Origin: an uncultured Caryophanales bacterium
GTDB taxonomy: Bacteria > Bacillota_I > Bacilli_A > RFN20 > CAG-826
Assembly: GCA_946407815.1 (NCBI GenBank)
Contig: CAMJPB010000001.1
Location: 62,001-126,000 of the forward strand
Length of the DNA: 64,000 bases
Reading direction: 5' to 3'
Part shown: piece by piece, positions 17,769 to 23,415 of the stretch
Layout: each line of letters opens with the position of its first letter
How positions within the stretch are numbered: the stretch's first letter is position 1
The notes under the pieces: generated by a model
Databases searched by the model: none
What the model was told of the DNA's origin: nothing
The model's input: the letters and a program-made list of their open reading frames with translations, nothing else
Translations under genes and position numbers: made by a program

Positions 17769-18245
17769 AACTCTAGGGGGTGCAATTAAACACATAAAAA
17801 AAAGAATAAGTATATTTAATAACTATTGTTATTATTTGGCACTCCCTAGTGGAGAGTGCTTGCTTCTTCTTCTTCTTCTTTATAGAATATAAAGCGAGGA
17901 TAGTTAGATAGAGTAAAGGTTTTAGTGGTCAAAAAATCTTTCTTTATTAATCTATCCGAAGCGTTAAGAAGAAAATTTGATTTAGTAGAACAAAAGTGCA
18001 CATTGCTCTTATAAAGAGAGTTTCTCCTTAACACAAAAAGTCACTTTCTATTTTAAAAGTGTGGTCGACCAACCACAGTTTTGATAAAAGTGACGCACAA
18101 CTAGACTTTTTAATACTTTAATGAGTTCAATCTAGACTCTTTAATGTAATTACAAAAGTCAATTAAGTTGTTCATATGAACCTCACTAAATAGTAATAAC
18201 GAAAGGCACTATTTGGGAGGAATAAAAGAAAGGAGAAAACTCAAT
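17769..18245 (+). promoter_or_regulatory. Long conserved 5' leader of surface gene 2
   Basis: Parallel to 6301-6812. TAGGGGGTGCA (17775-17785) is paired with GGCACTCCCTA (17838-17848). AAAAGTGCACATT is at about 17991-18004. The 59-base block 18036-18094 is identical to 6598-6656, and GTTGTTCATAT-n-AACCTCACT comes near the end. The ribosome site AAGAAAGGAGAAAA is identical too. Intervening sequence has diverged, so the shared block is under constraint. Confidence 0.65.
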
Positions 18246-21200
18246 ATGAACAAATTTTTAACAAAGATTGCCAAAGCCCTCTTAGGTTTATCAATGGCAA
18301 TCGGTGTTGGTATAGCTGTTGGAAGCAATAGTAAAGCTGAACCTGCAAAAGCTACTGATTATGTTAAAATTGCAACTTTTGATTTTACTGGTAGTGCCAC
18401 TCCTACAGGAACTACATCAACTGCTTTGTCAAGCACTACTGATATTGCAACCTACCTTAACGCATGTACATCCGATGTTACTGTAACTGTTTCTGCAAAA
18501 TCAGGAGATATTTATAAAGGCAAAGGAAGTGGTGGATCAGGAATTCCTCAAGCTGTTTTTAAAGTTGGAAAAGCAAGCGGCGCCGGTTCATTTACCTTTA
18601 CAATTTCAGGTTCGGATAATGTCGCTAAAGTTGAATTTGAAGCTTACGGTTGGAAAACTACAACTGCATTAAGTGTTAATTCAAGCGCTACACAAAGTCC
18701 TTCTACTGCTGCTTCATCATGGAAACCATCTTTCGTATTAGGAACTCCAACTACTACATTAACAGTTAGTTCTGCTACAAGTTGTACATGTATTGAGAAA
18801 ATGACACTTTGGAAAGAGGATAGTGGTACTCCAACACACACTCACACTTGGAGTGATTGGGCACAAACCGTTGCTCCAACTTGTACTACTGTTGGTGAAG
18901 AAGAAAGACACTGTACTGATCCAGATTGTCCTGATTCTGCAACTGAAACTCGTGAAGTTGCGAAAATTGCTCATAATTATGTTGCGGGTACCGTACATGC
19001 AGCCACTTGTACTGAAGATGGGTATACAGAATATGAATGTTCAATGTGTGGAGATTCAAAACATGACGACGTTGTCGCTGCTACTGGTCACAACTATGTA
19101 AATCATGTTTGCACAGTTTGTGGTGCGGAAGAACCGAGCGAAACAACAGTTACTACTAATATTAGTCAATATGCTACAGCCCACAGTTGGGTAAGCAGTT
19201 CAAGTTCTGGACAAAAGAGCATTACCATGGACGAAAATATCACCGCTTCTTGTAATTCTGGTACTAACTCAGGAAAATATTACTCTGATGGGTGGAGAAT
19301 TTATCAAAATGAAACTGGAAAGATTACAATAACAGCTTCAAATAACGCAACGTTATCTTCTGTAACTTTTACTTTTACAAATAATAATGGCGGAACTTTG
19401 AATTACGACTCGTCAGCATTAACATCAGGAACTCCTGTTACAGTCTCTGGTAATTCTGCTGAATTTACCTTAGGAAATAGTGGCTCGGCCACAAATGGTC
19501 AAATAAGAATTACAGTTATAAGTGTTACTTACAGTATTGAATCATCATCAACTAAACCAAGAGGCACAATTTCTATAACGTCTCCTAGTGATACAACTTT
19601 TGTGGTTGGTGATATTGGAAATTTAACTTATTCTTGGACACCAAATTCTGAAGCTAGTAGTGCAACAATTACATCAGCGGTTTGGTCATCATCAGCTGCT
19701 GCAATAACTGTTGACAATGAACATGGTACTTTTGAAGCCTCGCAAGCTGGTTCTGCTACATTGCAACTTGATGCAACGGACAGTACGGGTGAGGAATACA
19801 CTGTTTTAACAGAAAGTATTACAGTAACAAATCCACCTTTCGTATTGCCAGATATGCCTAGTGGGGATTATGTCAAAGTAACATCTGCTCAGGATGATTA
19901 TAGTGGTTATTATCTTATTGTATATGAAAGTGGTTCAGTTGCTTTTGATGGCGATCTAACTACTTTGGATGCAGTTAATAATGGTGTTTCAGTATCAATT
20001 GTTGATGGCAATACTATTGAAAACAATTCAACATCGAGAGCAGATACATTAAATAAAAGCGCTGTATACATTTCGAAAAATGGAACTCATTATGATATAG
20101 CTGCAAATATAAATAAAGAAAACGTAGTTTTCATTGGAAATGATGGTACTGGTAACGGCTTAAATACTAACGCTGATCGTATTTACAATAATACAATTTC
20201 CTTCTCAACTAACATGGTTGTTTCGGGTAGTGGCGGTAAGACAATTGGTTATAACAATAACAGCGATCAAATGAGATTTAGATATTTTAGTACTAGTGGT
20301 GTTTCTTATTATAAGAAGACTGTTGGTGTCGACACATTAAGAAGCATTGCTATCGTTGACCCAGTTACATCATTAAAGGATGGACAAAAATTTAATTTCG
20401 GCGGTTCTGTTACCGCAACTTATTCACAAACAGGAACAGCTGGTCATACCGGAATTACAAGTGGTTTGTCGTTCTCGATTGGAGGAGAAGCAGTAACCTC
20501 TGACACAACTATGACTAGAGGTGACTACACCGTTACAGTTACTTATAATGATGGAACCACATCAAAATCAAATACATATTCACTTTCTGTCGGATATGCA
20601 GATGCGACCGGTGTAAACATTTCAGGTCCTTCTTCTATTTCTGTTGCAAAAGGTTATGAAGGAACATTTACTGCTACAGTTACTCCTTCTAACGCTGAAA
20701 ATAGTGTCGTGTGGTCTGTAACAGATACTTCTGGAAACGCTACATCTTTAGGTTCAATCGATTCAGCTACTGGCGAATTTACAGCAGGTAATACTCCAGG
20801 AACATTAAGAGTTGTTGCCACATCTTCTGATGGATACGCTTCTTCATATGTAACAGTCGAGATATCTGGTGATCCATTACTTGAGATCAATAAGAGCAGC
20901 ATCACAGCTTATTCGATCGATTCAGCTGAATCATTAAGCGTTACGCCTAAGAATTTCCCTGAGGGAACTATCACTTATTCATGGGCATCAAATAACACCA
21001 ATGTTGCAACTGTCTCAAATGTTTCAACATCAACAAATTCCATTGAGTTTGTTGGTGCTGGCGGACAGGCTTTAATTACTGTTGTTGCTTATGTTAATTC
21101 AGTAGAAAAGGCCTCTGCATCTTGTACAGTTAATGTCACCAAAACGAGAAGTGTTTCTGAAGCTGCTGTTTTATCTGGAACATATGATTTTTCTTCGGTT

Positions 21201-22094
21201 ACAGAAAACGGAACAAGAATTACTGATGAAACGGTAGGCGATTTGAACACAAATTATTATGCTGCAGATTCTCTTTATCCGTTAGACACTCCAACCTTAT
21301 CTTTACCTTCATATGACTCAACTACAAACTATGTTTATTTAGGAAATGGCACTGGTGGTGCTCACCCTTCAACCGGAGGAATGCTTAAATTTGGTAAGTC
21401 AAAATTTGGTGGAGAAATAAGCTTTACTTTCACTCATACAATTACAAAGGTTGTTGTTTCAGCTCAAAAATGGGCTACTAATTCTGAAGAAGGTGAAATC
21501 CAAATTAATGGTGAAGCTCCTTCAGTTAATGCTGGTCAAAGTTCATATGTAGAGGTTGTTGCTGAAAATTTATCAACAAATACAATCACAATTAGCACTC
21601 CTGACTCATCAGCTCGTTGCTTTGTTAATTCAATTACTTTCTATTCTCAACAAAGTTCAACTGAAATCGGCAGAAGTGCTGATGTAGTTGGGCTTGAATC
21701 ATTTGTTGAAAATAAATTGAAATGGAACTCATACCACAATGATCATATATCTGGTGATACAACTGGCGATGGATCATGTGTTGATTTCTATGATAAAGAT
21801 GGTGAAAGTGGTGCTAAATATGCATTCAATCACTTAAACACTCATCAAAAAGCTCTTTTTACAACAAATTCAGCATATACAAATGAATGGTTACGTCTTC
21901 AAGATTGGGCGAAAGCAAATGGTGATGTATTAGACTCTGAAACCTTATTGCTGAAGACAACATCTGGTTCAGCTTTACTTAAATTCTTTAGTAATGAAAC
22001 CACGAACTCAGTAGCAATCATCGTTATCATTTCAATGGTATCTATGACCGCTATTGGAGGATACTTCTTCTTACGTAAGCGTAAAGAGAACTAA
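18246..22094 (+). CDS. Giant Ig-like surface protein 2
   Basis: 1282 residues from ATG 18246 (SD AAAGGAG). It has a signal peptide at 1-36 (MNKFLTKIAKALLGLSMAIG, cleavage near KATD). A Cys-rich segment at about 195-300 holds HTHTWSDWAQTVAPTC followed by repeated CxxC pairs (CSMCG, CTVCG), as in metal-binding or disulfide-linked surface repeats. Beta-rich modules and a BIG2-type domain (near 790-880; GTFTATVTPSNAENSVVWSV) follow. A C-terminal domain precedes the tail VAIIVIISMVSMTAIGGYFF plus LRKRKEN. The tail is nearly identical to that of the 6813 gene, so both proteins use the same anchoring route. Probable adhesin. Confidence 0.8.
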   Translation: MNKFLTKIAKALLGLSMAIGVGIAVGSNSKAEPAKATDYVKIATFDFTGSATPTGTTSTALSSTTDIATYLNACTSDVTVTVSAKSGDIYKGKGSGGSGIPQAVFKVGKASGAGSFTFTISGSDNVAKVEFEAYGWKTTTALSVNSSATQSPSTAASSWKPSFVLGTPTTTLTVSSATSCTCIEKMTLWKEDSGTPTHTHTWSDWAQTVAPTCTTVGEEERHCTDPDCPDSATETREVAKIAHNYVAGTVHAATCTEDGYTEYECSMCGDSKHDDVVAATGHNYVNHVCTVCGAEEPSETTVTTNISQYATAHSWVSSSSSGQKSITMDENITASCNSGTNSGKYYSDGWRIYQNETGKITITASNNATLSSVTFTFTNNNGGTLNYDSSALTSGTPVTVSGNSAEFTLGNSGSATNGQIRITVISVTYSIESSSTKPRGTISITSPSDTTFVVGDIGNLTYSWTPNSEASSATITSAVWSSSAAAITVDNEHGTFEASQAGSATLQLDATDSTGEEYTVLTESITVTNPPFVLPDMPSGDYVKVTSAQDDYSGYYLIVYESGSVAFDGDLTTLDAVNNGVSVSIVDGNTIENNSTSRADTLNKSAVYISKNGTHYDIAANINKENVVFIGNDGTGNGLNTNADRIYNNTISFSTNMVVSGSGGKTIGYNNNSDQMRFRYFSTSGVSYYKKTVGVDTLRSIAIVDPVTSLKDGQKFNFGGSVTATYSQTGTAGHTGITSGLSFSIGGEAVTSDTTMTRGDYTVTVTYNDGTTSKSNTYSLSVGYADATGVNISGPSSISVAKGYEGTFTATVTPSNAENSVVWSVTDTSGNATSLGSIDSATGEFTAGNTPGTLRVVATSSDGYASSYVTVEISGDPLLEINKSSITAYSIDSAESLSVTPKNFPEGTITYSWASNNTNVATVSNVSTSTNSIEFVGAGGQALITVVAYVNSVEKASASCTVNVTKTRSVSEAAVLSGTYDFSSVTENGTRITDETVGDLNTNYYAADSLYPLDTPTLSLPSYDSTTNYVYLGNGTGGAHPSTGGMLKFGKSKFGGEISFTFTHTITKVVVSAQKWATNSEEGEIQINGEAPSVNAGQSSYVEVVAENLSTNTITISTPDSSARCFVNSITFYSQQSSTEIGRSADVVGLESFVENKLKWNSYHNDHISGDTTGDGSCVDFYDKDGESGAKYAFNHLNTHQKALFTTNSAYTNEWLRLQDWAKANGDVLDSETLLLKTTSGSALLKFFSNETTNSVAIIVIISMVSMTAIGGYFFLRKRKEN

Positions 22095-22105: not shown

Positions 22106-22422
22106 TTAACTAAGGCTCTATAACATTCCCTGGGGTTTAATGGGGTTTGGAGCCAAAATAACATCTAAAAAACTCAAACATTTATTGGGGTTAGTGAAGA
22201 CCTGTTAGTCGATCTGATTAATGGGTCTTCTTGCTACTTAGCAATAATCATCATATTTAAATTTCTATGAATAATAACTAAGTTATTAAATACATAATTA
22301 TTTGAATATTTTGATAAGGATTAAAGATTAGAATTTTTATAGAAAATACTGATTAAAACTCTAACATTTAATGGGGTCATCGAAAAAATCGACCCCATAG
22401 AAAGTTACAGAGCCTTAACTAA
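22106..22422. mobile_element. ISL3-like MITE with 8-bp target duplication
   Basis: The element 22114-22414 (301 bp) starts GGCTCTATAACATTCCCTGG and ends with the complement of GGCTCTGTAACTTTCTATGG (about 19 of 23 terminal bases match). TTAACTAA flanks it on both sides (22106-22113, 22415-22422). GGCTCT ends plus 8-bp duplications are ISL3-family traits. There is no ORF inside, so it needs a transposase elsewhere. Confidence 0.75.
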
Positions 22423-22424
22423 TA

Positions 22425-22464
22425 GGAAGCCTTGGAAATTGACTAAGAAGGGGCTTCCTTTTAT
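22425..22464 (+). terminator. Terminator of surface gene 2, displaced by the MITE
   Basis: GGAAGCC (22425-22431) / GGCTTCC (22452-22458) with T-rich tail. It resembles the terminators at 10594 and 11831. It now lies 330 bases behind the stop codon because the MITE was inserted between. Confidence 0.7.
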
Positions 22465-22502
22465 TTATATTTAATTTATTTAAAAAAGATTAATAAACGT
22501 AA

Positions 22503-22641
22503 TATAATAATTATGCCAAGGGTGGAAATAACGAGCGTTCGACCACGGCGCGTTTAAACTCAATTGTTTAAATGGATCCCAGCGTTTCAAGGACTCGCTC
22601 TCCTTGTTGGCAAAAGCACCTATAATTGGGTGCTTTTAGTT
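22503..22641 (+). ncRNA. Unrecognised structured small RNA, copy 1
   Basis: TATAAT (22503-22508) lies six bases before the 5' end of the conserved RNA (22515-22611). A terminator AAAAGCACC / GGGTGCTTTT follows at once (22612-22638). Pairings: GCCAAGG with CCTTGTTGGC closing the ends; GAGCG (22533-22537) with CGCTC (22596-22600); TTTAAAC (22553-22559) with GTTTAAA (22566-22572); and a possible pseudoknot GTGG (22522-22525) with CCAC (22543-22546). It is duplicated at 23190. Confidence 0.75.
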
Positions 22642-22768
22642 TTGCCTTTTTAAGGTATGAAAACTGGGAATCGCTTCCTCTTATTTGTGATAAAATTTTA
22701 AAGGTTATCATAAATGATGTTCTTTTATTTTTGTTTCATTTCTATTTCTTTAAAAGGTGGTTTTAAAT

Positions 22769-23170
22769 ATGCCTCCTTATATTAGAAATCAAGCAATTGA
22801 TCCAAATATCATTGAAGCCTTAGAAAAACTTCCAAAAATAATGAGAAATAATCAAAATATGGAAGTTAGTATAAGAGCAGAAGCTAGAAATGAAACAGGA
22901 AAAGAACACATTGCTGTCATGACACACGGGTTACAAGTTCGAGACGTTAACTTAATTAAAAAGGCAATAAAATCTCCTGAATTTGTATGTGTTGACCCTA
23001 ACAATCGATATAAAAAGAATTAGTATATATCGCGTAAAGGAAATCATGGTGCAAATAATAGAAATAAGGGTGTTTTATTAAAAGTTGTTACTAAAGTAAA
23101 ATGTGATGGCAAAGAAGAAATTGTTACTGTTTTTCCAACAAATTCGATAAAGCCTTTAAAAAGCAAATAA
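22769..23170 (+). pseudogene. BECR-like (barnase/EndoU/RelE-type) nuclease gene broken by TAG
   Basis: The frame of about 133 codons has MTHGLQVRDVNLIKKAIKSP, then VLLKVVTKVKCDGKEEIVTV and FPTNSIKP. The His-containing HGLxxRD and the closing TvFPTNsIK resemble phage-type barnase-EndoU-colicin-RelE nucleases (family call by eye). TAG at 23021-23023 interrupts it after RYKKN, and the same frame continues to TAA 23168. SD AAAGGTGG precedes ATG 22769. It lies between two copies of the small RNA. Confidence 0.6.
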
Positions 23171-23177
23171 AATCAAT

Positions 23178-23312
23178 TATAATGGTATTGCCAAGGGTGG
23201 AAATAATGAGCGTGCGACCACGGCGCATCTGAACTTATGTTTAGATGGGTGTCAGCGTTTCAAGGACTCGCTCTCCTTGTTGGCAAAAGCACCTATAACG
23301 GGTGCTTTTAAT
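23178..23312 (+). ncRNA. Unrecognised structured small RNA, copy 2
   Basis: TATAAT (23178-23183) is again six bases before the RNA (23190-23284), and a terminator AAAAGCACC / GGGTGCTTTT (23285-23310) follows. The variable stem here is ATCTGAAC (23227-23234) with GTTTAGAT (23239-23246), so both sides changed together relative to copy 1. GAGCG/CGCTC and GTGG/CCAC are kept. The 30 bases behind the terminator (TTTTAAGGTATGAAAACTG) also match copy 1. Confidence 0.75.
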
Positions 23313-23415
23313 TTTGTCTTTTTAAGGTATGAAAACTGAGAATCAGACTCTTCTAAATTTTATAAAATTAAATTCAAAATATAATTAAAAGTAGTCACAA
23401 ATGTGACTATTTTCT

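Follow-up and report, generated by a model that had tools for sequence, protein, structure and literature searches.

In the window, as we call the whole 64,000-nucleotide stretch analysed here, two sequences of the forward strand with the same architecture stand on either side of a small interrupted gene. The original prediction saw in them an unrecognised structured RNA and proposed two readings, namely that the RNA and the gene form an RNA-protein toxin or defence unit, duplicated and then partly inactivated, or that the RNA belongs to an independent regulatory family. We asked what this RNA is and whether it belongs with the gene that it flanks.

Two RNA copies around an interrupted, putative toxin gene

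Copy 1 of the RNA (97 nt) occupies positions 22515 to 22611 and copy 2 (95 nt) positions 23190 to 23284, both on the forward strand, and each begins 6 nt after a TATAAT -10 box (22503-22508 and 23178-23183, respectively), as had been predicted. Directly 3' of each RNA, the sequence and its folding reveal the expected intrinsic terminator, a hairpin followed by a run of T (22612-22643 and 23285-23315, same strand), and the paired changes announced for the variable stem can be read in both copies. A covariance model, R1, built from 31 short members of the family with both window copies among its input sequences, scored copy 1 at 60.6 bits (E 9e-15) and copy 2 at 62.6 bits (E 2.5e-15) in a search of the window. 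Neither RNA matched a known family in Rfam, whether in the gathering scan or with lax filters (E 5), so that the scan proposed to exclude a known RNA came out negative.

The gene between the two RNAs (22769-23170, forward strand) starts with an ATG preceded by a Shine-Dalgarno-like AAAGGTGG, and its translation matches the profile of a toxin family with E 6.4e-27. It had been described as a BECR-like nuclease gene with a premature TAG; the predicted fold and the profile agree with this description, and the in-frame TAG is found at 23021-23023, where it truncates the product at 84 aa. The remaining frame is open and still in the register of the family. Copy 2 of the RNA starts 19 nt past the end of this frame, its -10 box lying 7 nt past it, in the position in which the RNA is found in 62 of 65 relatives, and it is the cognate partner of the toxin gene. 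Copy 1, alone upstream of the gene, is an orphan duplicate. It is contained in a duplicated segment of 221 bp, in which positions 22479-22697 align to 23155-23369 of the same strand with 83% identity (221 aligned columns), the second copy of the segment beginning within the 3' end of the toxin frame. The genome of the window, which is 45% complete, holds a third RNA copy at C1:17520 (locus L190), behind a toxin remnant and beside tRNA genes.

Directly upstream of the toxin-RNA unit, positions 18213-22094 encode a protein of 1293 aa that looks like a surface protein: it contains a Big_2 Ig-like domain (E 3e-5) and ends in a membrane-anchor-like C-terminus (FFLRKRKEN). Between this gene and RNA copy 1 (22360-22470) there are inverted repeats at about 22373-22401 (GGGGTC..GACCCC) and at 22427-22463 (GGAAGCC..GGCTTCC), probably terminators.

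Fold and distribution of the RNA family

Folding of the single sequences was unremarkable: with the RNA alone, z values were -0.7 and -1.95, the proposed fold was not recovered, and the minimum free energy structure of the window RNA paired GAGCG with CGCTC in place of the GTGG hairpin. For this reason, the fold was tested by comparison across relatives. It consists of a helix, P1, that encloses three hairpins, P2 to P4, and the loop of P2 forms a kissing interaction with that of P4. In copy 1, P1 is formed by 22515-22519 and 22607-22611, P2 by 22522-22525 and 22543-22546, P3 by 22551-22559 and 22566-22574, P4 by 22588-22592 and 22602-22606, and the kissing strands are 22533-22537 and 22596-22600. 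GTGG/CCAC and the GAGCG/CGCTC crossing it are both present, as the predicted pseudoknot demands. We counted its base pairs in 64 distinct members, using the conserved CGACCAC and P4 as landmarks at a fixed offset from which the strands were read, and 265 of 320 pairs were standard. When the partners were shuffled, 205.6±5.8 standard pairs were obtained, with a maximum of 226 and none of 5000 shufflings reaching the observed number, and when the register was shifted the count fell to 69-118. The helix co-changes between members, as in GAGC/GCTC, CAGC/GCTG, CGGTG/CACCG and CAGT/ACTG; homologues with compensatory changes thus exist. The fixed-offset count applies to the pseudoknot only; the counts for P1 (320/320) and P4 (313/320) depend on the procedure that located the ends and are in part circular, and P2 is almost invariant and therefore uninformative for covariation. 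The closed fold of the original prediction is accordingly upheld by covariation across relatives and not by single-sequence folding.

P1 closes each RNA into one unit of about 83-180 nt, whose unpaired core is strongly conserved, with no variable spacer-like segment. The short form measures about 83-97 nt. Two longer forms carry either a long P4 arm (about 130-140 nt) or an additional hairpin within the P2 loop (about 120-130 nt), and one locus (L191) combines both extensions. Neighbouring whole copies are occasional, and at L019, L029 and L065 they stand in tandem with no terminator between them. As to the signals around the RNA, 110 of 128 members have a -10 box that agrees at five or six of its six positions, mostly with the 6-nt spacing of copy 1, and a T-run follows in 123 of 125.

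The family was followed through several collections. By BLAST, 18 of 96 genomes of the window's bacterial family had matches, and a search of 84,980 species genomes with the core pattern returned 47 stretches, nearly all in metagenome-assembled genomes of Bacilli, many of them from rumen or horse gut. Pattern matches in Acidobacteria, Muribaculaceae and Hymenobacter lack the fold and were set aside as chance, about five chance matches being estimated; viral contigs gave none. The covariance-model search suggested by the prediction found R1 matches at 132 places in 71 of 224 genomes of the bacterial family, a few low-scoring ones being chance, with up to seven copies per genome. It added nothing in the rest of the order, and in a sample of 344 genomes of the phylum it stayed within the same bacterial family, apart from one weak match. 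All carriers are metagenome-assembled genomes. Judged from these sequences, the small knotted RNAs form a family that had not been listed before, carried by gut Bacilli and essentially confined to one bacterial family.

Linkage of the RNA to a predicted BECR toxin

When we considered the ORFs of 80-145 aa ending at most 60 nt upstream of an RNA, 52 of 54 belonged to one homologous family of proteins of about 120 aa, of which the broken gene of the window is a member. H45, H51, D57 and R85 are invariant in this family and R38 is nearly so; the window frame encodes all five positions, and its TAG falls before the last. An AlphaFold2 model of the toxin (pLDDT 91) gave BrnT (Z 6.5), RelE (Z 5.5), HigB1 (Z 5.4) and CdiA-CT (Z 5.0) as the best VIA-align rows, and nearly all top rows have the BECR fold, with moderate Z values. 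Foldseek returned nothing below E 0.001 (best E 0.07), solved structures searched by sequence with the toxin profile included no notable match, and in Pfam some members matched MuF_C (1.7e-5) and PBECR3 (2.4e-4), both below the cut-offs. As the moderate structure scores agree mutually and with Pfam, the modelled toxin can be assigned to the BECR fold.

The toxin profile matched at 65 places in 50 of the 224 genomes of the bacterial family. A toxin match in genome G627 (L206) is a false positive. The proposed linkage of the RNA to BECR-like genes was found almost throughout: in 62 of the 65 members the RNA lies downstream on the same strand, 61 of them linked by coordinates and the other being L191, with its full extended RNA, and the gap is mostly 33-50 nt. 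Counted by genomes, 48 of the 50 with a toxin also have the RNA (Fisher 1e-28, a value that ignores genome relatedness). Three toxins remain. Behind the divergent one at L193 comes a diverged RNA, which shows a P1 of 9 bp, a CAGC/GCTG kiss and a terminator; the divergent one at L194 has an element of similar plan, structured and on the opposite strand. For both, the scores are weak (11 bits, E 0.1), and the assignment also relies on visual inspection. The last of the three, close to the end of its contig, is a pseudogene.

Toxin and RNA also diverge jointly. The distances between toxins correlate with those between their RNAs (Mantel r 0.64, 52 pairs), a value reached in 0 of 5000 permutations, and again in 0 of 5000 when shuffling was limited to within genera. 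Several genomes carry at least two units whose toxins differ by 62-81%, and the RNAs of these units differ too, often by subtype. The correlation shows that toxin and RNA travel together; it is no proof of contact, because shared ancestry of linked genes also yields it. In addition, RNAs with no adjacent intact toxin are common and intact toxins with no RNA almost absent, and this asymmetry is the pattern expected of an antitoxin and its toxin.

The RNA carries its own promoter signal and terminator. In many toxin genes the ATG comes directly after a -10-like box, so that their mRNA would look leaderless, unlike that of the window gene with its Shine-Dalgarno-like sequence. As read from these signals, more RNA than toxin could be made, with no need for the operon that RNA and toxin share in type III systems. 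At L079, L083, L084, L085, L011, L159, L162 and L164, a near-perfect inverted repeat, ATAAGAC..GTCTTAT, covers the presumed toxin promoter before the leaderless-looking ATG; this repeat could be an operator.

The near-obligate linkage and the joint divergence would look identical if the RNA were a cofactor or guide that forms with the nuclease an active ribonucleoprotein effector, for instance against phage RNA, and the several RNA copies per genome would suit such a role. We nevertheless hold it to be unlikely, given that so many RNAs persist toxin-free and hardly any intact toxin RNA-free, and that the unpaired core offers no spacer-like segment that varies. A small RNA with its own promoter adjoining a toxin gene is the usual layout of type I systems, in which the RNA would pair with the toxin mRNA and block its translation. 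Here, however, the RNA lies on the toxin's strand with no overlap, and in the start region of the mRNA, to which the calculation refers, the cognate duplex (-24.5 kcal/mol) shows no excess over non-cognate ones (-24.8 kcal/mol; mean rank 0.47) and is no stronger than that with shuffled sequence, which makes antisense control very improbable. Just as improbable is an independent regulator or riboswitch-like leader with a hitch-hiking toxin, in spite of the riboswitch-like conserved loops, the immediate terminator, the orphan copies and the tandems with no terminator between them, for the downstream gene is inconsistent across loci, the gene after copy 2 reads on the opposite strand, the RNA accompanies nearly every toxin and its distances follow those of the toxin even within genera; the second reading of the original prediction was therefore abandoned. 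A type II protein antitoxin was rejected, as no neighbouring protein family occurs in more than 11 of 52 modules or in more than 4 of 11 genera, and so was a viral origin, with the RNA core in 0 viral contigs and the toxin in 0 phage and 0 plasmid records.

Because antisense control is unsupported and neither a protein partner nor a downstream gene is conserved, direct inhibition of the nuclease by the RNA is most likely the mechanism, by analogy with known antitoxins. An intact unit has two genes that read the same way, a small predicted BECR-fold endoribonuclease first and the RNA, with its own strong promoter signal, second; the RNA would most likely bind its own nuclease and block the activity as type III antitoxins do. 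That the protein cleaves RNA, that it is toxic, and that the RNA binds and inhibits it directly is what we infer here. We consider it quite probable that the window locus is the remnant of such an RNA-neutralised, type III-like toxin unit, in which the RNA fold is new, the toxin is of the BECR kind and the gene order is reversed: the TAG interrupts the toxin gene, copy 2 persists, and the duplicate stands upstream as copy 1. The linkage, the duplication and the TAG all fit the unit, duplicated and then partly inactivated, that the original prediction put forward. Some orphan RNAs, being so common, may have other roles.

A tRNA gene lies at most 700 nt upstream of the toxin in 12 of 48 toxin-RNA units; of 300 random stretches, 18 have one. 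These tRNAs are mostly a tRNA-Asn/tRNA-Glu pair, 100-320 nt away (L009, L011, L075, L077, L082, L083, L088, L162, L164, L165 and L190). The pair could mark a site of insertion at which one unit is exchanged for another, since L190, with the third RNA copy of the window's genome, also follows tRNA genes.

Known RNA antitoxins and a second BECR-like family

Type III systems (ToxIN, CptIN, TenpIN; AbiQ) likewise join a ribonuclease-like toxin to a pseudoknotted small RNA. In these systems the RNA lies upstream under one promoter as tandem repeats of about 34-45 nt, the toxin is MazF/Kid-like, and RNA and toxin are subtype-specific (PMC5086642). In the new unit the RNA is downstream with its own -10 box, instead of upstream with a shared promoter and a terminator before the toxin; it is a single unit and no repeat array; its covarying pseudoknot is of the kissing type, unlike the H-type of ToxI; and the predicted toxin fold is BECR-like. 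No MazF, Kid or ToxN entry is among the VIA-align matches listed, although a missing row does not exclude the fold. The unit was not filed as type III because of the upstream RNA, tandem repeats and MazF-like toxins of that type, yet it probably works like one.

The closest experimental precedent is AbiF/RCd22 of C. difficile, in which a growth-inhibiting protein is bound and neutralised by a structured RNA of about 100-130 nt that has a promoter and a terminator of its own (PMC12373285). The AbiF gene follows its RNA and is in part transcribed together with it, whereas our toxin gene precedes the RNA; the AbiF system has an Abi_2 protein and two abiF hairpin motifs, in contrast to the BECR-like toxin here. 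The abiF RNA motif (RF03085) matched none of our RNAs in the gathering and lax Rfam scans, nor did Abi_2 match in a Pfam search of 38 toxin members at E 1. The toxin shares its fold and weak profile similarity with RelE, HigB, BrnT and YafQ and with the phage PBECR and MuF_C domains; PBECR domains occur in polyvalent proteins of phages or mobile elements (PMC5512222). RelE-type toxins have protein antitoxins, while the new unit has no conserved protein partner. The term 'RNA antitoxin' does not occur in a 2025 survey of BECR toxins (PMC11980606), and a search of a limited literature collection, where absence is no proof, did not find the toxin-RNA unit described.

A second BECR-like family, family B (MuF_C E 3e-4), has 42 matches in 30 genomes (L209-L232). 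Its toxin gene is followed by a different small RNA on the opposite strand, convergent with it. This RNA has a promoter (in L209, TTGACA and TATAAT) and a hairpin of about 40 nt whose inner part is conserved in sequence, and its T-run falls within the 3' end of the toxin gene. Tandem pairs occur at L217 and L221, and a version of about 130 nt at L219, L222, L224, L225 and L229. It may be a second, independent RNA partner. Family B had been considered as a partner of the kissing-loop RNA, 121-126 nt upstream of which it is found, and was rejected since it carries its own RNA; PBECR4 (L116) and YafQ (L012), likewise considered at first, are single cases, probably chance neighbours.

On the evidence of sequence, ours is a new RNA class and a new toxin-RNA unit, whose function we infer. 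On balance we lean towards a new RNA-neutralised system in which BECR ribonucleases would be controlled by dedicated, non-repetitive kissing-loop RNAs encoded downstream. Control of BECR toxins by RNA may have evolved more than once in the bacterial family, because the second family has a different, convergent small RNA beside it. BECR is among the commonest folds of bacterial RNase toxins. To our knowledge, where an RNA antitoxin is known to target a protein, that protein is ToxN-like or of the Abi_2 family. If true, our reading would extend RNA-based control to RelE-like BECR nucleases. The RNA class would also offer a fresh, non-repetitive fold for structural work, and as the natural pairs of toxin and RNA number in the dozens, with several in one genome, they would allow the study of how an RNA recognises its cognate toxin.
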